Part shown: piece after piece, positions 1,044 through 26,053 of the stretch
How the letters are laid out: every line of letters starts with the position of its first letter
Numbering within the stretch: position 1 is the first letter of the stretch
Virus record (IMG/VR): IMGVR_UViG_3300042876_000252
Span: 1-26,394 of that record
Direction: 5' to 3' (one strand)
Source: a virus
DNA length: 26,394 nt
Program-made: the position numbers and the translations under genes
The notes under the pieces: model-generated
Databases searched by the model: none
Told to the model about the DNA's origin: nothing
The model's input: the letters and a program-made list of their open reading frames with translations, nothing else

Positions 1044-1048
1044 ACCAA

Positions 1049-1094
1049 AAGGGGAAGTGTATCCGGTAACTTAGGGTATGCTTCCCCTTTTTTT
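1049..1094 (+). terminator. Rho-independent terminator after the capsid gene
   Basis: AAGGGGAAG (1049-1057) pairs perfectly with CTTCCCCTT (1081-1089). The right arm runs into seven T residues (1088-1094). It sits only 5 nt after the capsid stop codon, the place of T-phi between genes 10 and 11 in T7. The next gene starts at 1110, so some read-through must serve the tail genes unless a further promoter exists. Confidence 0.85.
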
Positions 1095-1109
1095 GCTGAA
1101 GGATTACAA

Positions 1110-5095: not shown

Positions 5096-5168
5096 CCAAT
5101 ACGTCAGGGAAGTAACGGAAGAGGATCTAAAGGAGATTGGCGGCACCTTCAAACTGAGAAAGATAGAC

Positions 5169-6157: not shown

Positions 6158-6166
6158 AGGAGCACT

Positions 6167-8656: not shown

Positions 8657-8659
8657 TAA

Positions 8660-12442: not shown

Positions 12443-12882
12443 TGAGCTACAACCCCAAGCAGTTCAAAGCCCTTGTCACCAAGATTCTCAAGGCCGTACC
12501 CATGGAGAACTTCTATTCCGAAGCTGCTGTATATCTCTTGCTGGGCACGGCTGCACAAGAGTCCACCTTTGGCACCTACCTCAGACAGATCACCGGCCCC
12601 GCAAGGGGCTGCTTTCAAATGGAGGGTGCCACATTCAATTGGCTCAAGGAGAAGTACAAGGGCTTAATGCCCGAGCTGGCCCAGTGGGATGCAGATGATA
12701 TGGAGTGGAACCTCGCTCTTGCTATCATCATGTGCCGATTAAAGTACATGAGTTGTCCCGGAGCCTTACCCACGGAGCTGGTGGGTTGGGCGGCCTACTG
12801 GAAGAAGTACTATAACACCCCCTTGGGTGCGGGTACTGAGATGGAATTCATCAGGAACTTTAAACGGTTCGTAACAGTTTAA
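12442..12882 (+). CDS. Small lysozyme/transglycosylase-like protein
   Basis: This 146-residue protein starts at the ATG in TGATG, overlapping the gp16-like stop. The motif GTAAQESTFGTYLRQ has a Glu (E40) in the place of the catalytic acid of lysozyme-fold transglycosylases. It is followed by GPARGCFQMEGATFNWL, resembling the G-x-x-G-x-x-Q-x substrate-binding motif. It most likely cleaves peptidoglycan. It could be the endolysin, paired with the membrane protein at 14676, or a virion-associated hydrolase replacing the domain missing from the gp16-like protein. No signal peptide is visible. Its place between the internal virion proteins and the tail fibre favours a virion or late-lysis role. 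T7 has no gene here. Confidence 0.7.
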   Translation: MSYNPKQFKALVTKILKAVPMENFYSEAAVYLLLGTAAQESTFGTYLRQITGPARGCFQMEGATFNWLKEKYKGLMPELAQWDADDMEWNLALAIIMCRLKYMSCPGALPTELVGWAAYWKKYYNTPLGAGTEMEFIRNFKRFVTV

Positions 12883-12894
12883 CTTAGGAGTGTT

Positions 12895-14679
12895 ATGGCT
12901 TATTCGCATGTGACTTACGTAGGGGATGGATCGACAACAGTATTCGCTGTGCCCTTCCCCTACATTTCCCCGCTGGATGTTGCTGTTACTGTGGCCGGTG
13001 CTCCGGTCGAGCCTGCATGGCTCACAGACGCAAGCATATCACTGGTGCCTGCCCCTGTCTCCGGCTCCCTCGTGAAGATTCAGCGCAGGACTTCTCCTGA
13101 GACTCGTAAGGTGGAGTTCAACGACAGCTCCAACCTCACTGCCGCCACACTCAACAAGGATTCGCTCCAGGCGTTCTATCTGGCACAGGAGTCAGCGGAC
13201 GATATTGACAGTGTGGAAGCCGGGATCAGCGGAGAGATCCAGTCCCGTTTGACTGAAGACATCGACATCAGGAACACCATTGCTGAACTCGTGGTTGGCT
13301 CTCTGCCTGTCGAAGTTGAGCCGGCGAACAACGCTGTGCCCAGGGCCGGGAGCACCGGAAGACTCAGCCGGAAGTGGTTGGGTGATGTGATCGACATCCG
13401 GGACTATGGTGCAGTGTGCAACTCCCTTACGGATGACACCACAGCAATAAGGAACGCCATAACTGGTAATCCAGGTGGGCATATCATCATCACAGGTGTG
13501 CCTGTGGTAACCAGTGGGCTCAACTTGTCCGGCTTCGGTGGGACTATCGAATGGTTGGGTGGTGCTTATCTCAAGGCTGGCGCAAACGACTTCAAAGTGT
13601 TCTTCAATACTACTAACTCTTGGGGTTGCCGACTGATTGACCTCCGTATAAAGGGCACTGGTACAACTGGTGTCATCGCCGGGGAGTTCTCAAGATTCAA
13701 TTACAACGGTGCTGCCATCGTCAGACCGTACCTCAGAGATATGCATAGCGGGTTCATCCTCACATCGCTCAACTTTGGACTCTCCATTGAGTATCCATGT
13801 ATGGTCAATGTGCTGCATCCGATAAAGCTGTTGTACTCCAACTCAGCAGTCATCATTCACCATCCTATTATAGACGGTTACGGAGAGGTGGAAGATGATC
13901 CGGCGATTGAGATTACATCAGATGGCAACATAGGGGTCAAGATCCTCGGCGGCTTCATCCAAGCTGGCAAGGTTGGGCTCCGTGATTCGGGAAGAGCCAC
14001 ACAAGTGCTTGGCACCTACTTTGAGAACAACGATGAGGACATCGACCTTGTGAACAGCAAGTTCTTCTCTTCGCTGGGCACGAACCATGCCGCACTTGTC
14101 GGTGCATCCGCATACAGACTGCGGAACTCTGATGGCGCACTCATCGTGAATCCGTACATGGGATCGGGTGCCAGATCCACCGGGCTGCTCGACTCCAACG
14201 GATCGAACACCAATTGTTCGGTGCAGTACACACGAGGTGCGGCCACAGAGAATGTCCCGCTGGGCGTTACTACCGGGATCAACTTCATCTATCCTGTGAC
14301 GAGAGGCACCTTTACCCCTGTTGTAGCTGGTACAACATCTGCCGGGGTGGGCACCTATACTGTGCAATGGGGGCGTTACACCCAGGAAGGCAAGAGAGTG
14401 ACCGCCGAGATGTTCTTGACGTGGACAGCCCACACAGGCACGGGGAACATCTCCGTGACCGGACTGCCCGTTGCAGCGGACTCCGCATTCCTCACCTTCC
14501 ACCAAGGCCCTGTTGTGTTCTCTGGCGGCCCCTACACCGGCCCCGGCTTAACCTGTTACCTCAATGGAACCGGGAACAACATCACCGTGGCCCAAGTGTC
14601 CACTGCCGGTGCGCTGTCCTTCGTGGCGCTGCCTGCTGCTGGATCACTGAAGATCCGTATGGAGTATGATACACCGTGA
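12895..14679 (+). CDS. Tail fibre/tailspike with T7 gp17-like anchor and pectate-lyase-like beta-helix
   Basis: The 594-residue protein has three parts. Residues 1 to about 110 match the gp17 N-terminal tail-attachment domain: YVGDGSTTVFAVPFPYISP, then FNDSSNLTAATLNKDSLQAF and an AQESADD end. Residues about 167-195, DIRDYGAVCNSLTDDTTAIR, match the start of pectate-lyase-3-type beta-helices (usually DFGAVGDGVTDDTAAIQ). The following repeats, such as GFGGTIEWLGGAYLKAG and IKILGGFI-type strands, suit a right-handed beta-helix. The last ~110 residues (GTFTPVVAGTTSAGVGTYTV onward) look like a separate C-terminal beta domain. It should bind the host surface and may depolymerise a capsule or O-antigen, but catalytic residues cannot be assigned. 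TTAGGAG precedes the start. Confidence 0.9.
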   Translation: MAYSHVTYVGDGSTTVFAVPFPYISPLDVAVTVAGAPVEPAWLTDASISLVPAPVSGSLVKIQRRTSPETRKVEFNDSSNLTAATLNKDSLQAFYLAQESADDIDSVEAGISGEIQSRLTEDIDIRNTIAELVVGSLPVEVEPANNAVPRAGSTGRLSRKWLGDVIDIRDYGAVCNSLTDDTTAIRNAITGNPGGHIIITGVPVVTSGLNLSGFGGTIEWLGGAYLKAGANDFKVFFNTTNSWGCRLIDLRIKGTGTTGVIAGEFSRFNYNGAAIVRPYLRDMHSGFILTSLNFGLSIEYPCMVNVLHPIKLLYSNSAVIIHHPIIDGYGEVEDDPAIEITSDGNIGVKILGGFIQAGKVGLRDSGRATQVLGTYFENNDEDIDLVNSKFFSSLGTNHAALVGASAYRLRNSDGALIVNPYMGSGARSTGLLDSNGSNTNCSVQYTRGAATENVPLGVTTGINFIYPVTRGTFTPVVAGTTSAGVGTYTVQWGRYTQEGKRVTAEMFLTWTAHTGTGNISVTGLPVAADSAFLTFHQGPVVFSGGPYTGPGLTCYLNGTGNNITVAQVSTAGALSFVALPAAGSLKIRMEYDTP

Positions 14680-14936
14680 CAAGAGATGATCTAAAGCCGA
14701 TCATGGTTGAGGCTGTAAGGGAAGCTCTAGCTACACACAGGTGCTTCTGTAACCTGTCGGGGGAGGGTATCTCCCCTGCCACTCATGTGGAGCACCATAG
14801 GGAGTGGGGGGAGTTGAAGCAGTCCATAGGCAAAGTGAAAGTCGGAGTTGTGCTTGCTATTTGCACACTGATAACAACTTCCGGTTTGGGAGTACTCTGG
14901 CTTGGCTTGAAATACACTTTCGGAGTAGCGAAATGA
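14676..14936 (+). CDS. Small single-pass membrane protein, putative holin
   Basis: The 86-residue product starts with GTG inside GTGA, overlapping the tail-fibre stop, which implies coupled translation. The first half is polar and contains HRCFCN (residues 21-26) and a His pair (HVEHH). Residues about 56-78 form one hydrophobic helix (VGVVLAICTLITTSGLGVLW), and the last residues are short and basic. In T7 the class II holin gp17.5 lies at exactly this place, between fibre and small terminase, so a lysis role is likely. It has no sequence feature that proves holin activity, and a spanin or anchor function is possible. The CxC and His residues are unusual for a holin. Confidence 0.6.
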   Translation: MTRDDLKPIMVEAVREALATHRCFCNLSGEGISPATHVEHHREWGELKQSIGKVKVGVVLAICTLITTSGLGVLWLGLKYTFGVAK

Positions 14937-15148
14937 CAAGAGCGGAAAACCTTAGCAAACTGTTTGACACCGTGTGTGACACTCTCTCTGAGAAGTTGCA
15001 GAGCGAAGAGTGTACCCCCAATGATGTGAAGAACGCGATTCAGTTCTTGAAGGACAACGGGATAACCGGAGAGCCGCGCAAGGGTACTCCCCTGGATAGG
15101 CTGCTGGAAGACCTCCCGTTCAACGAGATAAACCCGCACGTGAGCTAG
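14933..15148 (+). CDS. terS: Terminase small subunit (T7 gp18-like)
   Basis: The 71-residue frame starts at ATG 14933, overlapping the previous stop as ATGA. An upstream extension of the open frame to 14804 only shadows the holin-like gene. The segment NDVKNAIQFLKDNGITGEPR is the recognisable core of T7-like small terminases, which typically read ARQFLKDNNI. The N-terminal part is a helix of the kind used for oligomer and DNA contacts. T7 gp18 has 89 residues, so this one is short. It should recognise concatemeric DNA for packaging together with the large subunit encoded next. Confidence 0.85.
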   Translation: MTRAENLSKLFDTVCDTLSEKLQSEECTPNDVKNAIQFLKDNGITGEPRKGTPLDRLLEDLPFNEINPHVS

Positions 15149-15271
15149 GTCTACACATGGCACCCCGTTAGAGGCCCTTTACAGAGCTTCTGGCGGGGGC
15201 ACCTTAGCACCCACCTAATCATATCACCCATCCCCCGTTAGTCCCTCCTGAACCCACACAGAAAGAAAAAT
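15149..15271 (+). other. Intergenic gap between small and large terminase genes
   Basis: No gene fits here, whereas T7 carries the Rz-like 18.5 gene. The gap holds two copies of the intergenic motif CCCC(C)GTTAG, at 15162-15171 and 15232-15242, and a related GGCACCTTAG at about 15198-15206. The leader AGAAAGAAAAAT before the large-terminase start is A-rich rather than a clear Shine-Dalgarno. Confidence 0.5.
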
Positions 15272-16999
15272 ATGACGGATACCATGGGTAATCGGGTGAA
15301 CCCCGAGAATCCCATCCAGATGAACCCGGTTAAAGCCGACTTTCGCAATTTCATGTATTTGGTTTGGAAACACCTCAACCTCCCTGACCCCACACCTGTG
15401 CAATACGAGATTGCCTATTACCTTCAGCACGGACCCGACCGACAGATCATAGAGGCGTTCCGGGGTGTGGGTAAGAGCTGGATCACCTCTGCCTTTGTGG
15501 TGTGGACCCTCTTGAGAAACCCCAATGCTCAGTTCTTGGTGGTCAGTGCCAGCAAGCAGAGGGCCGATGCGTTCTCGACGTTCACCCTGCGCCTGATCTA
15601 CGACATGCCCATCTTGCAACACCTCATCCCGAGGACCGACCAGCGCAACAGTAAGATTGCCTTTGACGTTGACGGAGCCAGAGCGGCACATGCCCCCAGC
15701 GTGAAGAGTGCCGGTGTGTTCGGCCAGTTGGCGGGCTCCCGCTCCACACACATCATTGCCGATGACGTAGAGATTCCCAACAACTCAGCCACACAGGACA
15801 TGCGCGACAAGCTGCTCAAGGCCGTGATGGAGTTCGAAGCAATCAAGGTGCCGGAAGGCGGCAGGATCACCTACCTTGGCACTCCTCAGACCGAAGAGTC
15901 AATCTATAACAAGCTCAGGGGGAAGGGCTTCCAGTGCTGCATATGGCCTGCCCGAGTCCCGACCGAGGATCAGCTTGGAGTTTATCAAGACTCCCTGGCA
16001 CCCTCCATCGAGCGGATGACCATGGAAGGCAAGGCAGGGAGAGCAACAGACCCTCGACGGTTCACCGATGTCAAGCTGATGGAGACTGAGGCAAGCATGG
16101 GCCGGTCCGGATTCGCCCTTCAGTTCATGTTGGACACAGCGCCCAGTGATGCAGACAAGTACCCCCTCAAGCTCAGTGACCTGATAGTCATGGACCTCAA
16201 CCCCAAGAAGGCCCCCGCCTTGGTGCAGTACGGCTCAAGTGTCGAGCTGCAAATGAAGGAGCTGGCAAACATCGGGTTCGACGGTGACAGATGGTACAGG
16301 CCCCTCTACTCAGACAAAGAGTGGGCCGAGTTCGAAGGCAGCGTGATGGCCATAGATCCATCAGGCCGTGGCGCAGACGAGACTACCTATGCCGTGGTGA
16401 AGCAGTTGCACGGTATGCTCTTCCTTACGGCCTTCGGTGGCTTCAAGGGCGGCTACGAGGATCACACACTCTATGCCCTGGCTCAGGTGGCCAAGGACCA
16501 GAACGTCAACGAGATTGTCATAGAGTCCAACTTTGGTGACGGTATGTTCTCCCGGTTGTTTCAGCCCGTGCTCAACAAGCTGCACAGGTGTGTGATTAGC
16601 GAGAAGTCACACCACACTCAGAAGGAAAAGAGGATCATCGACGTTCTTGAGCCTGTCATGAACCGACACAAGCTGGTAATCGACAGGTCTTGTGTGGTGG
16701 AGGATCTGAAGAAGGTAAGTGACAGGTTGACCTTCTCGTTGTTCTACCAGATGACCAGGATCACCAGAGAGCGTGGCGCGCTGAAGCATGATGACTTGAT
16801 CGACGTGCTCAGTATGGCTGTGGCCTACTGGGTGGAGAGCATGAGCCGTGATGACACCGAGGCACTGAAGAACTGGAAGGAGCAGGCCCTTGAGGATCAG
16901 CTCCAGGAATTCGTGGACGGCTGCACTCAGGGGAAGGGGAAGCTAGTCGGACGGCCTGTCAATAAGAATAATTGGTTGTTCGGGATGCAGCGTAAGTAG
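15272..16999 (+). CDS. terL: Terminase large subunit (T7 gp19-like)
   Basis: The 575-residue packaging motor (T7 gp19 is 586) shows the expected ATPase and nuclease motifs. Walker A is EAFRGVGKS at residues 61-69, and Walker B is HIIADDVE with D164 and D165. The C-terminal RNase H-fold nuclease has acidic residues in MAIDPSGRGADE (D362), VIESNFGDG (E418) and KHDDLIDVLSMA (D507). It pumps DNA into the prohead and cuts concatemers, which in T7-like phages leaves short direct terminal repeats. It is the last late gene, and the genome ends are expected in the following non-coding kilobase. Confidence 0.96.
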   Translation: MTDTMGNRVNPENPIQMNPVKADFRNFMYLVWKHLNLPDPTPVQYEIAYYLQHGPDRQIIEAFRGVGKSWITSAFVVWTLLRNPNAQFLVVSASKQRADAFSTFTLRLIYDMPILQHLIPRTDQRNSKIAFDVDGARAAHAPSVKSAGVFGQLAGSRSTHIIADDVEIPNNSATQDMRDKLLKAVMEFEAIKVPEGGRITYLGTPQTEESIYNKLRGKGFQCCIWPARVPTEDQLGVYQDSLAPSIERMTMEGKAGRATDPRRFTDVKLMETEASMGRSGFALQFMLDTAPSDADKYPLKLSDLIVMDLNPKKAPALVQYGSSVELQMKELANIGFDGDRWYRPLYSDKEWAEFEGSVMAIDPSGRGADETTYAVVKQLHGMLFLTAFGGFKGGYEDHTLYALAQVAKDQNVNEIVIESNFGDGMFSRLFQPVLNKLHRCVISEKSHHTQKEKRIIDVLEPVMNRHKLVIDRSCVVEDLKKVSDRLTFSLFYQMTRITRERGALKHDDLIDVLSMAVAYWVESMSRDDTEALKNWKEQALEDQLQEFVDGCTQGKGKLVGRPVNKNNWLFGMQRK

Positions 17000-17023: not shown

Positions 17024-17122
17024 ACCCCCTTAGTTGAGATAAGCCAGGGTAAAGTGTTATGTTATACTGTATGTATAACTCATGTCCAAGATCCATGGTA
17101 AAGTGTATGGTACTCACTATAA
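17024..17122 (+). promoter_or_regulatory. Promoter-like module A (near-duplicate of the RNA polymerase leader)
   Basis: Blocks in order: ACCCCCTTAGTTGA (17024-17037); a 28-bp block (17047-17074) identical to 22475-22502 and containing an extended -10, TGTTATACT (17060-17068); ATGTCCAAGATCCAT (17082-17096), identical to 22523-22537; and TACTCACTATAA (17111-17122). ACTCACTATA equals the core of the T7 RNA polymerase promoter, and CACTATAA is shared with module B. It may be a host promoter, a phage polymerase promoter near the right end (like phi-OR), or both. Confidence 0.5.
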
Positions 17123-17696: not shown

Positions 17697-17792
17697 CGAC
17701 CTAGCCCAGCACCTTGCCATCGACCTAGCCCAGCACCTTGCCATCGACCTAGCCCAGCACCTTACCATCGACCCAGCCAAACACCTCGCCAT
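17697..17792 (+). repeat. 24-bp direct tandem repeat, four copies
   Basis: The unit CGACCTAGCCCAGCACCTTG followed by CCAT occurs identically at 17697-17720 and 17721-17744, with one change at 17745-17768, and degenerately at 17769-17792. On the minus strand it would encode repeats of MARCWARS, but that reading frame has no start context and I take it as a by-product. The repeat could be a replication or packaging element near the genome ends, or simple slippage expansion. Confidence 0.8.
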
Positions 17793-17886: not shown

Positions 17887-17916
17887 TTGACATTCGTTGG
17901 CGCTAACGAGTACAAC
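17887..17916 (+). promoter_or_regulatory. Early sigma70-like promoter with a palindromic operator in the spacer
   Basis: TTGACA (17887-17892) and TACAAC (17911-17916) are separated by 18 bp, a plausible host-polymerase promoter for the early operon. The spacer contains CGTTGGCGCTAACG (17895-17908), a near-perfect 14-bp palindrome in which only the G/T pair breaks symmetry. A protein bound there would block the promoter. The same GGCGCTAACGA core recurs before the RNA polymerase gene (22708-22718). An AGGAGGG at about 17926-17932 is not followed by a usable start codon. Confidence 0.6.
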
Positions 17917-18508: not shown

Positions 18509-18570
18509 CGACACAGCAGGAAACAGCAGCGAAACGGATTGCCGAGCTTTTGGGTTACCTGCAAGACTAG
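18505..18570 (+). CDS. Possible 21-residue peptide ending inside an intergenic hairpin
   Basis: ATG 18505 overlaps the preceding stop and opens MTTQQETAAKRIAELLGYLQ plus D, to TAG 18568-18570. The peptide is an amphipathic helix. Its last codons and stop lie in the 5' arm and loop of the hairpin at 18557-18579, so ribosomes reading it would melt that structure. It may be a regulatory peptide coupled to hairpin folding or the remnant of a longer gene. Confidence 0.4.
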   Translation: MTTQQETAAKRIAELLGYLQD

Positions 18571-18603: not shown

Positions 18604-18619
18604 ATCATTGACGTTAACG
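18604..18619 (+). promoter_or_regulatory. GCGYTAACG-type motif before the 124-residue gene
   Basis: The sequence AATCATTGACGTTAACGC (about 18603-18620) nearly repeats AATCATTGTCGTTAACGC at about 25237-25254. On the minus strand it reads GCGTTAACGTC, matching the palindromic core in the early promoter. The role is unknown; it may be an operator. Confidence 0.4.
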
Positions 18620-18642
18620 CTATCATCAACAAAGGGGAAACC

Positions 18643-19017
18643 ATGAAAACCGGACGGACAGACGTGCAGCGCGACAATCGCAAGACACATTGCCTTAACT
18701 CCACTCTGATAGGCTATTCATCCATCTGGTTGAATCCAGGCGATACGTTTCTTTACCGTGAGCACCTCGAAGGGGGAAAGGAAAGAATCCGCTTTGGTAG
18801 GTGTTACGGAAGGGTCAAACCCTTGGTTAGCTTGGGAGGTGAAAAGACAATATGGCATGTACTAGCTTTGGTAGCTTCGGACAGAATGACAGGCGCTTAT
18901 GAAAGGTGGATTGAACCTAAAGACGTTATCGAGACTGTACCGGAAAAGTACACTAACCCATTGATACGCTCTTGGTTTGACGAACAGGAGTACTGGAGAG
19001 ATCAGGACAAGCACTAA
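18643..19017 (+). CDS. Hypothetical 124-residue early protein
   Basis: The start follows AAAGGGGAAACC, the shared early ribosome-binding site. The sequence includes NSTLIGYSSIWLNPGDTFLY, GGKERIRFGRCYGRVKPLVS and a C-terminal acidic and aromatic tail (WFDEQEYWRDQDKH). The middle looks like a small beta barrel: alternating strands with Gly turns, followed by IWHVLALVASDR and YERWIEPKDV. I cannot assign a family. Early position in a T7-like phage suggests a host-takeover or anti-defence role, but that is context only. Confidence 0.7.
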   Translation: MKTGRTDVQRDNRKTHCLNSTLIGYSSIWLNPGDTFLYREHLEGGKERIRFGRCYGRVKPLVSLGGEKTIWHVLALVASDRMTGAYERWIEPKDVIETVPEKYTNPLIRSWFDEQEYWRDQDKH

Positions 19018-19025
19018 GCGTTAAA

Positions 19026-19067
19026 CTTTTGGGTTAGGTCTGACCCGGTATCAGACCTTGCCTTGAA
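19026..19067 (+). repeat. Intergenic hairpin cassette, copy 2
   Basis: Same flanks as copy 1, with a perfect 8-bp stem AGGTCTGA (19036-19043) / TCAGACCT (19051-19058) and a CCCGGTA loop. Downstream CTTGACTCTACTGCACC is shared with copy 3. Confidence 0.85.
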
Positions 19068-19109
19068 TCTTGACTCTACTGCACCAAACACCTAACCAAA
19101 GGGGAAACC

Positions 19110-19403
19110 ATGACACCTCAAGAACTGCAACAAAAGCTAATCATTGCGGATAATCGTGCGAAACGTATAACCGATATGATCCGTGAACGTGCAAGAAAAG
19201 TTTGTCGTGAGGCTAACCTTGACCCAAACTTACTTGGTATCCATCCGCATAACGCAATGTGTGGCTTTGAGAGTGGTAACCCATGGCCCGAAGTGAATTA
19301 CCAAAAGTGTAGACTCACCCTTCACTTGCTGCAACGTATGTTTGAACCACATAGAATCTACAACAGATATGCAGAACGGTTAATCAGAGACTTTTACCGA
19401 TAG
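19110..19403 (+). CDS. Hypothetical 97-residue basic early protein
   Basis: The start follows AAAGGGGAAACC. The N-terminal half is a long charged helix (TPQELQQKLIIADNRAKRI, then RERARKVCREANL). The C-terminal half, CRLTLHLLQRMFEPHRIYNR followed by YAERLIRDFYR, is also helical and very basic. Nucleic-acid or host-protein binding would suit the charge, but I recognise no family. It lies between hairpin cassettes 2 and 3. Confidence 0.7.
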   Translation: MTPQELQQKLIIADNRAKRITDMIRERARKVCREANLDPNLLGIHPHNAMCGFESGNPWPEVNYQKCRLTLHLLQRMFEPHRIYNRYAERLIRDFYR

Positions 19404-19408
19404 GCTAG

Positions 19409-19449
19409 CTTTTGGGTTACCTACAACATGGCTTGTAGGTTGCCTTGAA
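19409..19449 (+). repeat. Intergenic hairpin cassette, copy 3
   Basis: Perfect 8-bp stem ACCTACAA (19419-19426) / TTGTAGGT (19433-19440), loop CATGGC, between the shared flanks CTTTTGGGTTA and TGCCTTGAA. The stem type matches copy 1. Confidence 0.85.
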
Positions 19450-19491
19450 CCTTGACTCTACTGCACCTAACACACACACAAAGGGGAAGTC

Positions 19492-19722
19492 ATGAAAGCT
19501 ATTCAGACGAAGTACCACGGCGCAACGAATTACCGTGGGTCAAGAATCATTGCCACAGCAGACGATAACCCACGCCTAACCCAGCCCTACAACAGGGAAG
19601 GCGAAGCCACAGAGGAAGACGTTCACAGACGTGCCGCTTATGCTTTACGGGATAAGCTAGGCTGGAAAGGTGAGCTTGTAGGGGGATGGAAAAAGGACAG
19701 TTACTATTGGGTTTTTGTGTAG
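19492..19722 (+). CDS. Small conserved phage protein (MKAIxTKYxxATNxRGSRI family)
   Basis: This 76-residue protein has the order I know from a widespread family of small uncharacterised phage and prophage proteins: N-terminal MKAIQTKYHGATNYRGSRII, then a variable segment, then VHRRAAYALRDKLGWKGELV and a C-terminal KDSYYWVFV. The usual family length is about 70-75 residues, so it is complete. The function is unknown; these genes are common in accessory early regions. AAAGGGGAAGTC precedes the ATG. Confidence 0.8.
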   Translation: MKAIQTKYHGATNYRGSRIIATADDNPRLTQPYNREGEATEEDVHRRAAYALRDKLGWKGELVGGWKKDSYYWVFV

Positions 19723-19727
19723 CTTAG

Positions 19728-19769
19728 CTTTTGGGTTAGGTCTGACCCGGTTTCAGACCTTGCCTTGAA
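19728..19769 (+). repeat. Intergenic hairpin cassette, copy 4
   Basis: Perfect 8-bp stem AGGTCTGA (19738-19745) / TCAGACCT (19753-19760) with a CCCGGTT loop, same flanks as the other copies and same stem as copy 2. AAAGGGGAAACC and a start codon follow at 19785-19799. Confidence 0.85.
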
Positions 19770-19796
19770 CCTAACCTAACACCTAAAGGGGAAACC

Positions 19797-20021
19797 ATGA
19801 CAACGGAAGAACTACGCAAGGCCATAGAGGAAACCGTTCTTTATCACGAGGTAGAGTACCGGATTTACGAAAAGGTGATCCAGGTACTTACGCCTATGGT
19901 AGGCAAGCCGATTACCAAGAGACTCGCCACAGCAGTTCAAAGGGAAAAACGGCTGGATTGTCATTCCCGTGGAGAACAAACCGCCGATCGAATGCACGAA
20001 CGAAATGAGAAACGAACTTGA
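19797..20021 (+). CDS. Early protein, upstream part of a gene probably broken by a frameshift
   Basis: The ATG follows AAAGGGGAAACC. The first ~46 residues (MTTEELRKAIEETVLYHEVE and onward to ITKRLATAV) look like ordinary helical protein. After about 19935 this frame becomes low-quality (REKRLDCHSRGEQTADRMHE), while the +1 frame gives sensible sequence (FKGKNGWIVIPVENKPPIE) that continues for another ~115 residues to 20295. The switch falls around CAAAGGGAAAAAC (19938-19950). The intact product would be about 165 residues. I recognise no family. Confidence 0.5.
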   Translation: MTTEELRKAIEETVLYHEVEYRIYEKVIQVLTPMVGKPITKRLATAVQREKRLDCHSRGEQTADRMHERNEKRT

Positions 20022-20295
20022 GCTTTACGAGTTTGTCAATGATCCACCACAGAATTACTTTTTGTATATCAATGAGGAGCGCGATCAAGCTACCACGTGG
20101 ATGGGTGGGGTTTTAGGTACAGTGTACCTTGGGAGGTCGTATAGGTCCAATTGGGGCGACTGGCGCGTGCCTGTGTGGGTCAAGGGGATCAACGGACAGT
20201 TTTATCAGGGAACGTATTACCCTGACTCCGGGAATTACGCACGGGTTAAGGCTACCAAGAATAAGCCTAGATGGGACATACGCTGTCATTTTTAG
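19969..20295 (+). CDS. Downstream part of the same broken gene, or a GTG-started separate protein
   Basis: The frame is open from 19903 but has no ATG, GTG or TTG with a ribosome-binding site at its true beginning. GTG 19969 is the first in-frame start. The product includes LELYEFVNDPPQNYFLYINE, TTWMGGVLGTVYLGRSYRSN and WVKGINGQFYQGTYYPDSGN, a compact, aromatic-rich beta-type protein unlike the chance frames around it. Because credible protein sequence continues upstream of the GTG, I favour one gene split by a single-base shift over two genes. Confidence 0.55.
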   Translation: MENKPPIECTNEMRNELELYEFVNDPPQNYFLYINEERDQATTWMGGVLGTVYLGRSYRSNWGDWRVPVWVKGINGQFYQGTYYPDSGNYARVKATKNKPRWDIRCHF

Positions 20296-20308
20296 AGGAG
20301 GTTTAACC

Positions 20309-20500
20309 ATGGAAGGTCGTAGCGTGTTAACACTCACGGAAAAAGAGGAAATATTGAAAGCTGTTGACCGAGCCCAGCGGGCTACTGAAAAGCTGAATAC
20401 ACTGTGTAGGAAGAGAGGCGTTAGAGAAGTTATGGCCACCTTCGCGGAAACCAGACGGGACGCTAGGATACTCTACCAAGCGGGATACAGGGAGGTTTAA
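20309..20500 (+). CDS. Hypothetical 63-residue early protein
   Basis: ATG 20309 follows a strong GAGGAGG at about 20295-20301, a different ribosome-binding context from the preceding genes. The product (SVLTLTEKEEILKAVDRAQR, then EKLNTLCRKRGVREVMATFA) is helical and charged. The open frame extends upstream to 20129, but only as a shadow of the preceding gene. No family recognised. It is the last gene before the structured leader at 20570. Confidence 0.65.
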   Translation: MEGRSVLTLTEKEEILKAVDRAQRATEKLNTLCRKRGVREVMATFAETRRDARILYQAGYREV

Positions 20501-20569
20501 CACGTTGCGGTGGCCGTGGGCTTGCTTGCGGCTTCCCCTGTGTGCTAAACTGTAAAGAGGTCCAAACGC

Positions 20570-20632
20570 TTGACCTTTACCCGGTCCCTCGCTGGAGGGA
20601 CTCACGAAAGGGTCAACAGGGTATGCTTTTTG
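20570..20632 (+). terminator. Nested stem-loop with T-run: possible terminator or attenuator before the integrase operon
   Basis: The outer arms TTGACCTTT (20570-20578) and AAAGGGTCAA (20607-20616) pair with one bulged G. Inside them TCCCTC (20585-20590) pairs with GAGGGA (20595-20600) around a GCTG loop. A TTTTT run follows at about 20627-20631. The T-run is about 10 nt beyond the stem, so intrinsic termination may be weak. It separates the early genes from the regulator/integrase operon. The rest of the 20501-20712 gap shows one GCGCTAACG motif (20674-20682) and no gene. Confidence 0.5.
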
Positions 20633-20712
20633 CTTTACCGCAACTCAGAAATGGAGGGGTCACTTTTTGGCTTGCGCTAACGTAGCAGTCCAGGTAGAAA
20701 TGAGGTGAATCA

Positions 20713-20907
20713 ATGGTTTTGCAGTTTGAAGGGCTAGAGGTTGAAGTAGTGGCGGGGGACTTCGTGTATCTTCGGGTTAACGGATCTGATGGTCATGTTT
20801 TATGGGAGGATTTGCCATCAGAAGCGAGGGGAAAATTATGTGCCGAATTGAAACACTTAAAAGAGTTCTTCGAGTATTGCGGGGCGCTCATGAAGAAATG
20901 CCCGTGA
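20713..20907 (+). CDS. Hypothetical 64-residue protein, first gene of the integrase operon
   Basis: ATG 20713 follows GAGGTG. The product is acidic (LQFEGLEVEVVAGDFVYLRV, then HVLWEDLPSEARGKLCAELK) and reads as two or three beta strands followed by a helix. No family recognised. Its last 70 nt overlap the winged-helix gene in another frame. Since both frames look protein-like the overlap may be real, though one start could be wrong. Confidence 0.5.
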   Translation: MVLQFEGLEVEVVAGDFVYLRVNGSDGHVLWEDLPSEARGKLCAELKHLKEFFEYCGALMKKCP

Positions 20908-21143
20908 GACAAATTGAATTACTCCTTTCAATCTCCCCGACCGGGGGCACATCAGGGCCGGACCTTGAGCTTACAACCGGGCTGTCGAGTAGCGCGGTTT
21001 ACCGGCTGGGCAAGTCTCTGATAGACAAAGAGCTTGTTGTTCAGCAGCCGGATCACATCAATGCTAAAGCCAAGCGCCTCTTTTTGTCGAGCAAAGGTAA
21101 GACTGTGGTTGAGGAGGTTTACACCATTCTGAAGGAGGATTGA
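20838..21143 (+). CDS. MarR-like winged-helix DNA-binding protein, candidate lysogeny regulator
   Basis: From ATG 20838, preceded by GAGGGGA, the product has 101 residues. The frame is open further upstream to 20802, but that start has no ribosome-binding site. The pattern LELTTGLSSSAVYRLGKSLI, then DKELVVQQ, then AKRLFLSSKGKTVVEEV matches the recognition helix, wing and C-terminal LTxKGxxLLxE of MarR-family regulators, without the long dimerisation helices of full-length members (about 140 residues). It is two bases upstream of int and shares its transcript, and no CI-like repressor is visible elsewhere. It is therefore the best candidate for a repressor or excision control factor acting at the palindromes in this window. 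Confidence 0.7.
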   Translation: MCRIETLKRVLRVLRGAHEEMPVRQIELLLSISPTGGTSGPDLELTTGLSSSAVYRLGKSLIDKELVVQQPDHINAKAKRLFLSSKGKTVVEEVYTILKED

Positions 21144-21144
21144 T

Positions 21145-22233
21145 ATGACCTTAGTGGCCGTTCCGGGTTCACAGTACTGGCATTGTGATATTTTGGTGGG
21201 TGGTGACCGTGTCAAAAAGTCAACCAAAGTTAAACGACCCCCTGACAGTGCGGGGAAACGGGCGGCCACTGAGGCTCGCAAGGCCGCTCTGGCAGTTGAG
21301 GAGGAGTACAGGCAAGACAAGATCAAAGAGCAGCGGGAGGCCGCCAGGAGGGAAGCTGCCGGTTTTACGGAAGACATCCTTCTCAGCGCTGCCGTCAAGC
21401 GGATGTATAACACTCGCTGGCATGAGAAGGCCGATGGGGAGGCCATGCGTAAAAAAATGGAGTGGGTTGTTTCCCAAGTGGGCGACCCCATGCTTTCCAA
21501 AGTCAACGAGGAGTTTGTTGACAAGATGGTTGAAAAGCTGCGCTCATGTGGCAGGCAACCCGCAACCATCAACAGGTACAAGGCGCACCTGCGGATTATC
21601 ATGAGGCACGCTGTGCTCAAGTGGCGAGTGCCTGCGAGAATCCCCAGCATGGATATGTCCGACGAAACGGAAGGCCGGATGTTTGTGCTCACAGAGGATC
21701 AAGAGGCGAAGTTGACACTTACTCTCAGGGCCGCGCCGGTTGCTGAGACTCAGGGTAGACAGTACGCCGAGTATCCCGGTTACGCTGATTTATTTGAGGT
21801 GTTGGTTGACACCGGTCTACGCCTTGGGGAAGCCCGGCAGATTACCTTTTCCCGGCACATTGACCTTGAGGTGGGGGAAATCCGGCTTGATGGGGTGATG
21901 TGCAAGAGTGGCAAGGGGCGCGTCATTCCCATGACCAACAGAGTGAAAAACATTCTCACAGAGCGGAAGGCACTGGGTGTGGATCTGGCTTTCCCGTGGT
22001 CCCACTCCCGAGTTGAGCAGGTGTGGAACGGACTGGTACGCAAGAGGATGAACATTGCTGACCCGGAGTTCTGCATACACTGTCTGCGGCACACTTTTGC
22101 CTCCCGGTTGGTCAGGAAGGGTGTTGACCTGTACGTGGTCAAAAAGCTCATGGGTCATGCCAGCATCAGCACAACGGAACGGTATGCCAAATTGCAGACT
22201 GCGAACCTCGCTGACGCTGTAAAACTGCTGTGA
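21145..22233 (+). CDS. int: Tyrosine recombinase (phage integrase)
   Basis: The 362-residue protein catalyses site-specific recombination between attP and attB. The N-terminal ~50 residues (YWHCDILVGGDRVKKSTKV) look like an arm-binding beta domain, and residues about 75-175 like the helical core-binding SAM-like domain. The catalytic domain has R226 (DTGLRLGEARQ), probable K257 (KSGKGRVIP), H312 and R315 (HCLRHTF), H338 (LMGHASISTTERY) and the nucleophile Y347, a complete set. AAGGAGGATTGAT precedes the ATG, giving a strong ribosome-binding site. Translation is probably coupled to the winged-helix gene ending two bases earlier. The tRNA-Trp-like attP begins about 75 nt after the stop, the usual int-attP arrangement. 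Confidence 0.96.
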   Translation: MTLVAVPGSQYWHCDILVGGDRVKKSTKVKRPPDSAGKRAATEARKAALAVEEEYRQDKIKEQREAARREAAGFTEDILLSAAVKRMYNTRWHEKADGEAMRKKMEWVVSQVGDPMLSKVNEEFVDKMVEKLRSCGRQPATINRYKAHLRIIMRHAVLKWRVPARIPSMDMSDETEGRMFVLTEDQEAKLTLTLRAAPVAETQGRQYAEYPGYADLFEVLVDTGLRLGEARQITFSRHIDLEVGEIRLDGVMCKSGKGRVIPMTNRVKNILTERKALGVDLAFPWSHSRVEQVWNGLVRKRMNIADPEFCIHCLRHTFASRLVRKGVDLYVVKKLMGHASISTTERYAKLQTANLADAVKLL

Positions 22234-22277
22234 AAACTAGGGGGAATAGTGTGGGAAAACGAGCCTGTTTTTCACAC
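22229..22277 (+). promoter_or_regulatory. Candidate integrase arm-type sites and imperfect hairpin (P arm)
   Basis: Related sequences occur three times: TGTGAAAAC (22229-22237), GTGTGGGAAAAC (22249-22260) and, on the minus strand, GTGTGAAAAAC (22267-22277). A fourth, GTGTGAAAAA, lies on the other side of attP at 22426-22435. The second and third together fold into an 11-pair hairpin with one bulge and a GAGCCT loop. Repeats on both sides of an attP core are typical arm-type binding sites. Confidence 0.45.
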
Positions 22278-22308
22278 CAGATGCAACGCAAGTGGTTGAT
22301 ATTCTTAA

Positions 22309-22364
22309 AGAGCATCGGACTCCAAATCCGAGGGTTGGGGGTTCGAATCCCTCCTGGCCTGCCA
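22309..22364 (+). other. attP core: 3' portion of a tRNA-Trp gene (anticodon CCA)
   Basis: The stretch reads as a tRNA from the 3' strand of the D stem onward: AGAGC (22309-22313), anticodon stem TCGGA/TCCGA around CTCCAAA (anticodon CCA, Trp), variable loop GGGTT, T stem GGGGG/CCCTC with loop TTCGAAT, acceptor strand CTGGCCT, G and encoded CCA (22362-22364). The 5' acceptor and most of the D arm are missing (upstream bases do not pair with CTGGCCT), so this is not a working tRNA gene. Phage attP sites that copy the 3' end of a tRNA rebuild the host gene upon integration. Confidence 0.88.
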
Positions 22365-22383
22365 AAGAAAATCAAGTAGTTAG

Positions 22384-22418
22384 CCCGCCTCTTTGACCAT
22401 CCGAGGGGCGGGTTTTTT
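22384..22418 (+). terminator. Rho-independent terminator just downstream of attP
   Basis: CCCGCC (22384-22389) pairs with GGCGGG (22407-22412), with additional C/T-G pairing inward, followed by TTTTTT (22413-22418). It would end transcription of int in the phage. In the lysogen it would end transcription of the rebuilt tRNA-Trp gene before the phage RNA polymerase. Confidence 0.8.
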
Positions 22419-22439
22419 CGTCCTAGTGTGAAAAATGGT

Positions 22440-22547
22440 GGGGGTACGGCACCCCCTTAGTTGAAGTCCTCCAGGGGTAAAGTGTTATGTTATACTGTAT
22501 GTTAAACTGTATGGTACAGTTTATGTCCAAGATCCATTACACTATAA
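22440..22547 (+). promoter_or_regulatory. Promoter-like module B upstream of the RNA polymerase gene
   Basis: The module opens with a hairpin GGGGGT/ACCCCC (22440-22456) running into CCCCCTTAGTTGA. The 28-bp block 22475-22502 is identical to 17047-17074 and contains an extended -10 TGTTATACT (22488-22496). A second near-repeat TTAAACTGTATGG (22502-22514), ATGTCCAAGATCCAT (22523-22537) and ACACTATAA (22539-22547) follow. The last element resembles the CACTATA core of T7, SP6 and K11 promoters. This could allow host-driven first transcription and phage-polymerase feedback. Confidence 0.5.
22504..22522 (+). promoter_or_regulatory. Perfect 8-bp inverted repeat, operator-like
   Basis: AAACTGTATGGTACAGTTT is an exact inverted repeat (AAACTGTA / TACAGTTT) with a TGG spacer, lying 8 bp downstream of the extended -10. 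Module A lacks the perfect palindrome, so this site is specific to the RNA polymerase leader and would suit a dimeric repressor. Confidence 0.55.
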
Positions 22548-22736
22548 TATTATCCTCTTATACCATCCCCTAGACTATCCCATTCTGTCAGATAACCTTA
22601 CACAATCCTGAAAAGAATGGCTGTACGCAGCACTCTATGACTGGCTAGTGGGGGAGTACCACCCCCTTAGTCGGATACTCCAGAAACTTTGTCGCTTGAT
22701 TGTTGGTGGCGCTAACGAAGGGAGAGAATCAGCACT
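22548..22736 (+). promoter_or_regulatory. Remaining RNA polymerase leader with hairpin and GCGCTAACG motif
   Basis: No gene fits. A second GGGGG/CCCCC hairpin (22650-22666) ends in CCCCCTTAGT, copying the one at 22440. At 22695-22718 lies CTTGATTGTTGGTGGCGCTA plus ACGA, matching 19 of 24 positions of the early promoter segment 17886-17909, including a -35-like TTGA and GGCGCTAACGA, but with no -10. GGGAGAG precedes the polymerase start. Confidence 0.45.
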
Positions 22737-25238
22737 ATGTCTCAAGACAAGCTACTCCGTAAACAACTCTGTATGGAAGCTAGCGCAGCATTGGAAGGTA
22801 AGATGGATTATGAGGCCGCTTTATTCTCAGGCAGGCCCCTCCCACCTCACTTCGGTCTGCTCAAGATGGGCTTGCAACCGTTTGCCGAAGCCATAGCCTT
22901 AGAGCAAATGCCCTCAAGGGGAGGACACGCCGGGCAGAGGACCAAAAAGCTGTTTCGCTGTTTCACACCCTCAGACCTAGCCTATGTCGCACTTTGGACC
23001 ATGGTAACAGAGGTGCAGAGTGAACGCTCTGTGGCCTCCACAAGCGTCCTGCTGGGCACTGTGGCCAAGGATCATTTTGAGTACATGCGTTTCCTTGAGC
23101 AGAACCCTAAGCTCCTCAAAACGGTTGAGAGTGGCCTTAAAACCAAGCACGCTGGACACCGGCACACGGTTATTCTCAGAGCCAAGCGCAAGTATGACAT
23201 CCCTGACGTTGCGTGGGATCATGAAGACCTCAAAGCGTTTGGTCTTCGGTTGATCCACCTGTTAATCGAGAGCACAGGCCAGTTTGAAATCAGTTTCTCT
23301 CAGGATTCCGTGGGGAAGATGAAGAAGCTCAAAACTGTTGAGCCCTCACAGGAAACCCGGCGATACATGGAGAGGAGCAACAAGCGGTGCGTTTTAGTGT
23401 CAGCCAAGTACCTGCCCTGCTGCATCCCGCCGAAGCCTTGGACCAAACCCCGTGGTTGTGGTTTTTATTCTGGTGTGGGTGCCCACAATCTTAAGCTGGT
23501 TAAAACTAGGCACGACAAGGTTATAGACCTCATGAGCTTGTGTGACTGGAACAAGATTTTCAAAGGGCTCAACGCTCTGCAAGAGACTGCGTGGAAAATC
23601 AACAAGCCGGTCCTTGAGGTGGTCGATGAGGTTTGGGACCACACCAACGGGTTGGGAATCATGGACAAGGTAGAGGCGATTGTGTTTCCGCCTAAGCCGT
23701 GGTCCACCGATGAAGAGTGGAAGTTTTACAAAAAGGATCACCCCGAAGCATACCTAAAGTGGTGCCGGGAAACCACAGAGGCACACGACTTGGAAGCCAC
23801 CACTGGGGCACACGCTAAATTCGCCGCTCAGGCCATAGGCAGAGCCCGGCAGTTCAAGGATGAGGAGAAGTTTTATTTTGTCTGGACCTGTGACTATCGA
23901 GGGAGAGTGTACCCTATTCAACTGTACCTCACTCCCCAAGGTGACGACCTGTGCAAGGGCTTGCTTCAGTTCGCCGATGGTGTAGCACTCGGTGAGGACG
24001 GGGCGGACTGGCTGGCGATCCATGGGGCGAACTGTTTTGGCGAGGACAAGGTTAGCCTTGCTGACAGGATACGATGGGTCACGGACCACGCCGAAGAAAT
24101 AGATGACTCAGCCACTAATCCGCTGGACGGTGAACGGTTCTGGCTCCAGGCTGATGATCCGTGGATGTTCCTTGCGTTCTGCTTTGAGTGGGCTCAACTC
24201 CGCGACCACTGCGCCGGGGGTAATCCCGAGTCTACCTTTGTATCACACCTCCCCATAGGGGTTGATGGCTCATGCAATGGCCTCCAGCACCTGTCGGCTA
24301 TGGTCCGGGATGAAGAGGGAGGGGCCGCTGTCAATCTAGTACCTCAACCTCGACCAAATGATATTTATTCACAGGTGTGCCGTGGGCTTATCGACCTAGT
24401 CTCTCTGGATCTGGACTCGAAGTTTGAGCAGATCATCAAGGACAAGGAGGGAGAGGAGAAGTGCCGGATTCACCATGGTCAGATGGCCCTGCTGTGGCAA
24501 GGAAAAATTGACCGGAAGTTGGTCAAACCGGGCGTCATGACCACGCCATACGGTAGCACCTCCTATGGTAAGCGTCTGCAAATCATGGAGAGGCTCAAGA
24601 AGTTGGGTGGCGACTACCTAGCCATAGACAAGAAACAGCAATGGCAACCTGCTCTATACTTAAGCAAGAAACTTGAGCAGGTAATAGACCAAGCCGTTTC
24701 CGCTGCATCTCTGGTCATGGAATTCTTCAAGAAGATTGCCAAGCTCTTCAGCCAAGCTGGTTTGAACGTCATTACTTGGGTTAGTCCTTCTGGATTTCTC
24801 TCCGTGCAGCACTATGTGCAATCGGAGACTGTCAAGGTTTATACACTGTGGGGTAAACAGAAAATTCGGGTGAGCTACTACAAGGATACCGATGTGGCTG
24901 ATGGCAGCAAGGCAAGCGCGGGGATCAGTCCCAATGTGGTTCACTCCTTCGATGCTGCACACCTCATCAACTCTGTATGTGCCGCCAAGGATCAGGGTGT
25001 CAACGACTTCGCCATGGTCCATGACTCCTATGGATGCCACGCCGGGCACATGTCCATCTTGAGTGACGTGCTGCGACAGGAGTTCGTCAAGATTTACAGT
25101 GGTAATGTATTGGAGGATCTAGCGGCACAACTCAAGGCCCAGCTCCCTGAAGAGCAGCAGGCTGAGTTCCCCGCCGTGCCTCCTATGGGAAACTTGGATC
25201 TCAGCGGAGTGCTGAAGTCTAGCTATTTCTTTGCCTAA
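22737..25238 (+). CDS. Single-subunit DNA-directed RNA polymerase (T7 gp1-like)
   Basis: The 833-residue enzyme (T7 gp1 is 883) transcribes the phage middle and late genes. Conserved segments in order are DYRGRVYPIQLYLTPQGDDL (motif T/A region, residues about 385-405), GVDGSCNGLQHLSAM with catalytic D510, KPGVMTTPYGST with K597 and Y605 (T7 K631, Y639), SPNVVHSFDAAHL, and FAMVHDSYG with the second catalytic D763. The C-terminus SSYFFA resembles the FAFA foot of T7. All residues needed for catalysis are present. Unlike in lytic T7, the gene is separated from the early promoter by int, attP and a terminator and has its own complex leader, so independent and repressible expression is likely. Confidence 0.97.
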   Translation: MSQDKLLRKQLCMEASAALEGKMDYEAALFSGRPLPPHFGLLKMGLQPFAEAIALEQMPSRGGHAGQRTKKLFRCFTPSDLAYVALWTMVTEVQSERSVASTSVLLGTVAKDHFEYMRFLEQNPKLLKTVESGLKTKHAGHRHTVILRAKRKYDIPDVAWDHEDLKAFGLRLIHLLIESTGQFEISFSQDSVGKMKKLKTVEPSQETRRYMERSNKRCVLVSAKYLPCCIPPKPWTKPRGCGFYSGVGAHNLKLVKTRHDKVIDLMSLCDWNKIFKGLNALQETAWKINKPVLEVVDEVWDHTNGLGIMDKVEAIVFPPKPWSTDEEWKFYKKDHPEAYLKWCRETTEAHDLEATTGAHAKFAAQAIGRARQFKDEEKFYFVWTCDYRGRVYPIQLYLTPQGDDLCKGLLQFADGVALGEDGADWLAIHGANCFGEDKVSLADRIRWVTDHAEEIDDSATNPLDGERFWLQADDPWMFLAFCFEWAQLRDHCAGGNPESTFVSHLPIGVDGSCNGLQHLSAMVRDEEGGAAVNLVPQPRPNDIYSQVCRGLIDLVSLDLDSKFEQIIKDKEGEEKCRIHHGQMALLWQGKIDRKLVKPGVMTTPYGSTSYGKRLQIMERLKKLGGDYLAIDKKQQWQPALYLSKKLEQVIDQAVSAASLVMEFFKKIAKLFSQAGLNVITWVSPSGFLSVQHYVQSETVKVYTLWGKQKIRVSYYKDTDVADGSKASAGISPNVVHSFDAAHLINSVCAAKDQGVNDFAMVHDSYGCHAGHMSILSDVLRQEFVKIYSGNVLEDLAAQLKAQLPEEQQAEFPAVPPMGNLDLSGVLKSSYFFA

Positions 25239-25244
25239 TCATTG

Positions 25245-25258
25245 TCGTTAACGCCAAC
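25245..25258 (+). promoter_or_regulatory. GCGYTAACG-type motif downstream of the RNA polymerase gene
   Basis: TCGTTAACGCCAAC is the reverse complement of GTTGGCGTTAACGA and so matches the palindrome in the early promoter with one base changed. Flanking AATCATTG is also found at the 18604 copy. The gap is only 36 nt, so any regulator bound here would sit beside the next ribosome-binding site. Confidence 0.4.
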
Positions 25259-25274
25259 AACAAGGAGCACCAAA

Positions 25275-25457
25275 ATGACCGACAACAAGTACAACCCCAC
25301 GTCCCGCACCACCCCCGCATGGCTCATCTGCCACGCCAGAGGACTCGGCCAGCGAAAGGCCCTCGTGTATCCCCAGCCCGGCAAACACCTGACCACGGTG
25401 GATCGCCAGAAAGCCTACACGGTTCATCCTGATGGTTCACTGAGAAGGGGGTTCTGA
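25275..25457 (+). CDS. Hypothetical 60-residue protein
   Basis: ATG 25275 follows AAGGAG (25262-25267). The frame is open a little further upstream but without a better start. The product is basic (TSRTTPAWLICHARGLGQRK, then KAYTVHPDGSLRRGF) with strand-like segments. No family recognised. Its stop overlaps the start of the methyltransferase-like gene (TGATG), implying coupled translation. Confidence 0.6.
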   Translation: MTDNKYNPTSRTTPAWLICHARGLGQRKALVYPQPGKHLTTVDRQKAYTVHPDGSLRRGF

Positions 25458-26053
25458 TGAGAGTGCTGGTTGCCTGTGAGTATTCCGGGACAGTTCGGGA
25501 CGCATTCCTAGCGGTGGGGCACTACGCGATGAGCTGTGACCTACTCCCCACGGATCAACCCGGCCCCCATGTCCAAGGGGATGTCTTGCCCTTGCTTGAG
25601 GAAGAGTGGGACTTGATGATTGCTCACCCACCCTGCACCTATTTGTGCAGCTCCGGGTTGCACTGGAACAAGAGGCTGGCCGAGAGGGCCGAGCTGACAG
25701 CCAAGGCTCTGGAGTTCGTCAAGCTGTTGCTCTCCGCGCCTATCCCCCGGATAGCTCTTGAGAATCCCATGGGGTGTATCTCAACACGTATCCGGCAGCC
25801 CGACCAGTACATCCAGCCTTGGCAGTTCGGCCACGATGCCAGCAAGAAAACAGGTTTGTGGCTGAAGAACCTCCCCCTGTTGAGGCCCACCCGAATAGTT
25901 CACCCCCGGATGGTCAACGGCAAACCCCGGTGGAGCAATCAGACCGACTCAGGACAGAACAAACTTCCTCCCTCGAAGGACCGATGGAAGATCCGAAGCG
26001 CAACCTACCCCGGCATTGCCAAGGCTATGGCCGAGCAATGGGGCAACCTATAA
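25457..26053 (+). CDS. Short cytosine-methyltransferase-like protein
   Basis: The 198-residue protein starts MRVLVACEYSGTVRDAFLAV, resembling the motif I nucleotide-binding loop of C5-cytosine methyltransferases. It has HPPCTYLCSSG with C60 as the potential nucleophile (PPC motif IV) and ALENPMG with E102 (ENP-like motif VI). A family of such short proteins is found in phages. It lacks room for a normal target-recognition domain (typical enzymes exceed 300 residues). It may methylate DNA without strong specificity to evade restriction, need a partner, or act on nucleotides. Position after the polymerase suits an early protection role. Activity is not proven by the sequence. Confidence 0.75.
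   Translation: MRVLVACEYSGTVRDAFLAVGHYAMSCDLLPTDQPGPHVQGDVLPLLEEEWDLMIAHPPCTYLCSSGLHWNKRLAERAELTAKALEFVKLLLSAPIPRIALENPMGCISTRIRQPDQYIQPWQFGHDASKKTGLWLKNLPLLRPTRIVHPRMVNGKPRWSNQTDSGQNKLPPSKDRWKIRSATYPGIAKAMAEQWGNL

Follow-up and report, generated by a model that had tools for sequence, protein, structure and literature searches.

A tRNA-Trp-derived attachment site between the integrase and RNA polymerase genes of a probable temperate T7-like phage

Introduction

The locus described here raises two questions: at which chromosomal site would a T7-like phage with an integrase gene (int) insert its genome, and what would insertion there do to the control of the phage's own RNA polymerase (RNAP)? 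The locus occupies positions 21145-25238 of the IMG/VR virus record IMGVR_UViG_3300042876_000252, and consists of a tyrosine integrase gene, the 3' part of a tRNA-Trp gene and a T7-type RNAP gene. The analysed stretch, called the window below, is the whole 26,394-base record, which is classed as linear and represents a phage genome fragment in the free-phage configuration; all genes named from it lie on the plus strand. Temperate T7-like phages were reportedly defined by Boeckman et al. in 2022. We consider it probable that the window is a fragment of such a phage, that the end of tRNA-Trp forms the core of its attachment site (attP), and that RNAP is controlled by its own promoter region together with a repressor acting in trans.

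Results

A whole tRNA-Trp(CCA) was called by ARAGORN and Rfam at 22286-22364 (38 bits). Comparison with actual tRNA-Trp genes confines the real tRNA sequence to 22309-22364 (plus strand, AGAGCAT...GCCA), 56 nt that are identical to the 3' part of tRNA-Trp(CCA) including the CCA. The match begins within the D-arm and extends as far as the CCA, and the phage sequence upstream of 22309 departs from every host tRNA. Identity over exactly these 56 nt was found with tRNA-Trp genes on 31 bacterial contigs, and 57 host tRNA-Trp loci share at least the last 49 nt. The loci with a matching tRNA-Trp belong mostly to Desulfobacterota and Nitrospirota, so the host of the phage is probably a member of one of these phyla or a neighbour. 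A stand-alone functional phage tRNA was rejected as an explanation, the 5' half being unlike host tRNAs. The core is intergenic, and phage genes flank it on both sides (major capsid protein, tail, virion and terminase genes upstream, a methyltransferase gene downstream); it is therefore attP and not one of the prophage junctions, attL or attR. A preliminary description of this DNA had proposed attP between int and RNAP with tRNA-Trp as the target; the gene and tRNA comparisons confirm the former, and the bacterial matches, whose absence was to have refuted the idea, support the latter.

The tyrosine integrase (21145-22233, 362 aa; PHROG integrase 3e-47, Pfam Phage_integrase 8.6e-24) shows the R..HxxR..Y motifs and is encoded directly upstream of RNAP, with the tRNA-derived core in between. 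A search of IMG/VR with the integrase protein found no relatives. Copies of the repeat TRGTGTGRRAAA are present on both sides of the core, at 22226 and 22247 (plus strand) and 22268 (minus strand) on the left (22226-22279) and at 22424-22435 on the right (TAGTGTGAAAAA, plus strand). Three of them fit the consensus fully, but the consensus was derived from them, and a looser form of the repeat showed no enrichment across the whole window; the repeats are thus suggestive of arm-type integrase sites and no more. Seven host tRNA-Trp genes (L020, L037, L045, L049, L062, L066 and L072) are followed by a GG..AAATCAAG..TTAGC-like stretch resembling the right flank of the phage core. These stretches lend weak support to tRNA-Trp as a target, and perhaps mark other elements that use the same gene.

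The RNAP gene (22737-25238) encodes an 833-aa T7-type single-subunit enzyme (PHROG_414, 1e-210). It matches T7 RNAP in the PDB at 5.8e-101, aligned over residues 75-833, and retains the equivalents of T7 D537, K631, Y639 and D812, so that the catalytic residues are intact. Directly upstream of int lies a gene for a winged-helix (MarR/IclR-like) transcription regulator (20802-21143; PHROG_9665, 1.9e-9).

The expected prophage geometry was observed in relatives. The preliminary description held that the prophage would open with RNAP at the tRNA and close with the early genes and int, an order seen in one metagenomic provirus and, wholly or in part, in three Desulfovibrionales genomes. The provirus, G1066 (IMGVR_UViG_3300048577_000543), has a terminase large subunit (TerL) 59% identical to that of the window, the highest value among near-full-length matches, and reads from a host chemoreceptor-like gene through an intact tRNA-SeC and RNAP to TerL, early open reading frames (ORFs), a MarR-like gene and int at the contig end. 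In the Desulfovibrionales genomes (G845, G974 and G384), RNAP lies just inside one attachment end, and int is at the other end in two of them. The G845 chromosome carries an exact 56-bp tRNA-Leu(UAG) repeat 230 bp before RNAP; roughly 43 kb away, the intact tRNA that borders int contains the second copy. In G974, RNAP and int mark opposite ends of the prophage, and the host tRNA-Leu is divided into nt 1-39 and 29-87; extended blocks of phage genes are present in both G845 and G974. The G384 contig reads host DNA, tRNA-Leu core, CI repressor, RNAP. The corresponding free-phage order, int-attachment site-RNAP, was found in ProddE, LUZ100, HTVC019P and the IMG/VR contigs L002, L005, L101, L110 and L115, the short tRNA-like cores of LUZ100 and HTVC019P having been read by eye. 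The resemblance drawn in the preliminary description to marine T7-like phages with int upstream of RNAP also stands, for HTVC019P and the cyanophages.

An intrinsic terminator (22382-22419, plus strand; free energy about -21 kcal/mol, followed by T6) lies between the core and RNAP, 17 nt beyond the end of the tRNA. In G1066 and G974, too, the core or tRNA is followed by a hairpin, and comparable hairpins are not evident in L101 or L115; in LUZ100, a terminator was mapped at the equivalent place (PMC10134795). Beyond the terminator, a phage-promoter-like motif, CCCCCTTAGT, is present at 22452-22461 (plus strand), with other copies at 15163, 15233, 17025 and 22662, two copies thus standing upstream of RNAP. 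Its degenerate form CCCCSTTAGW occurs 5 times in the window against 0.16 expected, always on the plus strand and intergenic, as phage promoters would. Both copies near RNAP sit in GGGGGN7CCCCC palindromes (22440-22456, overlapping the first motif, and 22650-22671, plus strand, together with the second) that have no further copies in the window. A 58-nt element containing an extended -10-like TGTTATACT (22488-22496, plus strand) is common to the region upstream of RNAP (22451-22508) and the region after TerL (17024-17080, plus strand; 86% identical, blastn 1.5e-13), and the -10-like sequence is kept in both. An automatic promoter scan from the terminator to RNAP gave no sigma-70-like site above threshold, so it is only the conservation between the two copies that argues for the extended -10.

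A set of operator-like palindromes is common to the RNAP region and the early region. A candidate early promoter, TTGACA-N18-TACAAC (17887-17916, plus strand), contains the palindrome GTTGGCGCTAAC in its spacer (17896-17907). Similar palindromes lie upstream of the first listed early ORF (18607-18624), upstream of the regulator/int unit in a weaker form (GCTTGCGCTAACG, 20670-20682, plus strand), 20 nt upstream of the RNAP start codon (GGTGGCGCTAACG, 22705-22717, plus strand) and just after RNAP (25241-25258). The form GTTRNCGYYAAC gives 14 strand-hits in the window against 1.9 expected, with 6 of its 7 sites intergenic (intergenic share of the window, 13%); because the motifs of this and the preceding paragraph were found by inspection, their chance values are optimistic. 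The GTTGGCGCTAAC-like palindromes ahead of the early, regulator/int and RNAP units are candidate repressor operators.

The remainder of the window is consistent with a T7-like (Autographiviridae-type) phage, having T7-like structural genes and a terminase. The structural module (78-16999) begins at the contig start with the major capsid protein (78-1043; PHROG_267, 6.6e-78), and continues through tail genes, including a tail tubular protein B-like gene (2417-5095; PHROG_457, 3.8e-175), and internal virion proteins to TerL (15272-16999; PHROG_38, 6.6e-114; 59% identical to L097). A 1.6-kb region without clear genes follows, then small early ORFs mostly without family matches (18643-20907), the regulator, int, the tRNA-Trp 3' part, RNAP and a phage DNA methyltransferase gene (25457-26053; PHROG_757, 4e-64), whose region is 66% identical in DNA to that of Rhizobium phage Pasto. 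The 1.6-kb region contains a 24-nt tandem repeat, CGACCTAGCCCAGCACCTTGCCAT (17697-17792), and may be an origin or genome-end region. Repeated hairpin-like spacers (CTTTTGGGTTAGGTCTGACCCGG..CAGACC) and AAAGGGGAAACC stand ahead of early ORFs (19026-19070, 19728-19772, 18534-18564 and 19396-19426), and may be RNA processing sites and ribosome-binding sites.

The T7-type RNAP was also found in pieces among the compared sequences. It is in two pieces in the IMG/VR contigs L006-L009, L015 and L101, with the break near residues 245-260 of the window RNAP, reflecting a split gene, a frameshift or an intron; in G776:C81 (L096) it is in three pieces near a tRNA-Leu(UAG) at 249-334.

Discussion

From the anatomy of the window and the geometry of its relatives, we infer the following course of integration in this phage. 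Recombination at the host tRNA-Trp would leave the tRNA whole, its 3' part now supplied by the phage, and would linearise the phage circle at the point between int and RNAP, giving the prophage order tRNA-Trp, terminator, RNAP ... structural genes, TerL, early genes, regulator, int. The terminator would stay with RNAP and would insulate it in both states, from transcription of the early/int unit on free DNA and from the tRNA promoter after integration. RNAP would then be switched by its own promoter region, through a host-type start and positive feedback from the phage-type promoters, while a repressor would act in trans on operators shared by the RNAP region and the early promoter. Promoter and operator function and the identity of the repressor are likewise inferred.

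A similar arrangement has been described for LUZ100, in which the corresponding terminator stops most transcripts from the lysogeny promoter P3, and RNAP is immediately preceded by a phage-specific promoter (PMC10134795). According to the model proposed for that phage, transcription of marR-int by the host mostly fails to reach RNAP, the initial RNAP transcripts arise when transcription from P3 sporadically passes terminator T4, the polymerase stimulates its own promoter, and the regulator acts as repressor (PMC10134795). For the window, a trans-acting repressor combined with positive feedback, as in that model, is a likelier explanation than genome form.

The preliminary description had regarded the genome form itself as the transcription switch, integration splitting the early operon from the polymerase. 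On this reading, early transcription on free DNA would run through int and attP into RNAP, integration would cut this link and turn RNAP off, and excision or infection would turn it on again. The geometry does exist and is repeated among relatives, and in a prophage the read-through route of LUZ100 from P3 through T4 would be absent (PMC10134795). However, RNAP is already cut off from the early/int transcript on free DNA by a strong terminator, and it has a module of its own, with two CCCCSTTAGW motifs, the extended -10 and operator-like palindromes; in ProddE and G384, moreover, a CI repressor gene lies between the attachment site and RNAP and stays with RNAP once integrated. Because of the terminator and the control elements beside RNAP, we rejected integration alone as the best explanation and regard such a switch as unlikely, RNAP being most likely switched by its own promoter region, although genome form could contribute through terminator read-through. 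A broader version, in which selection has kept attP between the early operon and RNAP because free DNA permits read-through and integrated DNA does not, making integration and excision part of the lysis-lysogeny switch across T7-like phages with different tRNA targets, appears rather improbable.

Several observations weigh against the preferred explanation. The contig is partial, and DNA polymerase, primase and portal genes, like direct terminal repeats, would lie outside the 26.4-kb fragment; the Pfam matches of the regulator are below cut-off (MarR_2 8e-4, HTH_IclR 3e-4); and the motifs discussed above were recognised after looking at the sequence. A T7-type RNAP profile had no hits in 296 Nitrospirota genomes or in 56 genomes from the class of the metagenome-assembled genomes G001 and G004, which carry the tRNA-Trp; of 395 sampled Desulfobacterota genomes, 1 was positive, with a ProddE-like element and not a prophage of this phage. 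These searches sampled part of the phyla. The absence from Nitrospirota and the G001/G004 class is only weakly shown because control genomes gave no signal, while the same profile did find the Desulfovibrionales RNAPs. The tRNA-Trp core was found in 0 other viral (IMG/VR) contigs, and the fetched stretches of the 57 host loci contained no second copy of the tRNA-Trp 3' end as a mark of an occupied site. A tRNA-Trp followed directly by this RNAP had been the expected signature of a prophage; the search yielded matching host sites, none of them occupied by this phage.

The failure to find a prophage of this phage would also fit an essentially lytic phage, in which int and attP give only transient insertion, as in T7-like cyanophages. 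Both cyanophages that were tested, P-SSP7 and S-TIP37, insert at tRNA-Leu, but stable lysogens were not found (PMC8776855), so int together with attP does not prove lysogeny. Against this stand G1066, G845, G974 and G384, T7-like elements integrated in bacterial DNA, and the regulator and operator-like sites of the window, and we consider integration without true lysogeny unlikely.

Less likely again is a coupling of RNAP to the host tRNA-Trp promoter, which in the prophage would leak past the terminator and set a growth-tied basal level of RNAP. The tRNA and RNAP point in the same direction in the window and in G1066, as they do in G974 with a hairpin in between; the terminator intervenes, however, and the tRNA is reversed in ProddE and G845, so its direction is not a general requirement. 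That the tRNA piece is a captured, decaying gene without attachment function is very improbable: ARAGORN scores a whole tRNA and the 5' half keeps some tRNA-like pairing, but identity extends from the D-arm to the CCA beside an int with arm-like repeats, and it is at exactly this point that relatives have inserted into tRNA genes.

The phage fits among the temperate T7-like phages known from P-SSP7, HTVC019P, Pasto, LUZ100 and ProddE, and its layout is already known from all of these except Pasto. Its own differences are the tRNA-Trp target, the long 3' core, with which the tRNA would be rebuilt on integration, and the probable host. Desulfovibrio phage ProddE (MZ666938) and its prophage relatives G384 and G845 share the order int-tRNA core-RNAP, with identities to ProddE of 39% (major capsid protein), 53% (TerL), 33% (RNAP) and 29% (integrase); in that group, the core is instead a tRNA-Leu on the opposite strand, and in ProddE and G384 the CI-type gene follows the attachment site. 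Pseudomonas phage LUZ100 (OP329100) has the same succession of MarR-like regulator, int, tRNA-like core, terminator, phage promoter and RNAP (PMC10134795), but its short core resembles a tRNA-Leu anticodon arm, it has a complete tRNA-Leu gene, and no stable lysogen was obtained. The pelagiphage HTVC019P group shares the regulator-int-RNAP order, and P-SSP7 and S-TIP37 have attP in tRNA sequence downstream of int (PMC8776855), both with other hosts and tRNAs. G1066, known only as a metagenomic contig, has the MarR-like gene next to int and a tRNA pointing at RNAP, but uses tRNA-SeC and is in the integrated form. Rhizobium phage Pasto has a helix-turn-helix regulator and int upstream of RNAP and a related methyltransferase, but several genes and a tRNA-Leu separate its int from RNAP. 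The papers on G11 (PMC10142737) and Paku (PMC9022590) give no attachment-site detail. Integration-dependent immunity in mycobacteriophage BPs is similar in that the position of attP lets integration alter gene expression; there, attP lies inside the repressor gene and the protein is altered, whereas here no gene is cut (PMC4557955). The BPs type was accordingly rejected, the core at 22309-22364 being intergenic and the regulator lying at 20802-21143.

A further mode, tRNA-dependent lysogeny, was described in actinobacteriophages (PMC10865867). It was rejected for the phage of the window, which has 56-nt identity through the CCA and not a short (~10 bp), non-restoring core (PMC10865867), and whose 5' half differs from every host tRNA-Trp, leaving no complete tRNA of the same isotype; no further tRNA was found in the window. 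Relatives present a different picture. In G974 (C1:255081-298528, L088-L090), a host tRNA-Leu(UAA), intact in relatives, is split at the anticodon loop into nt 1-39 (298490-298528) and nt 29-87 (255081-255139), and the prophage has a complete tRNA-Leu(UAA) at 255188-255276. The five IMG/VR contigs L002, L005, L101, L110 and L115 have complete tRNA-Leu(UAA) genes just after int, followed by RNAP (in L110 and L115, only the RNAP start is on the contig, unconfirmed by search), and in L002, L101 and L115 a ACTTAAAA core comes directly after the tRNA. This looks like the pattern of tRNA-dependent lysogeny, in T7-like phages outside the actinobacteriophages. The tRNA-Leu of LUZ100 and pelagiphages has been taken as a remnant of imprecise excision (PMC10134795), for which tRNA-dependent lysogeny offers another reading.

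Taken together, these results add to the temperate T7-like phages one that targets tRNA-Trp and probably infects sulfate-reducing or related anaerobic bacteria. Bacterial and proviral DNA show that phages of this kind reside in the chromosome with RNAP and the early genes at opposite ends. This raises the testable question of how a self-amplifying polymerase is kept silent in a prophage, for which the DNA points to a terminator and a repressor over genome form alone.

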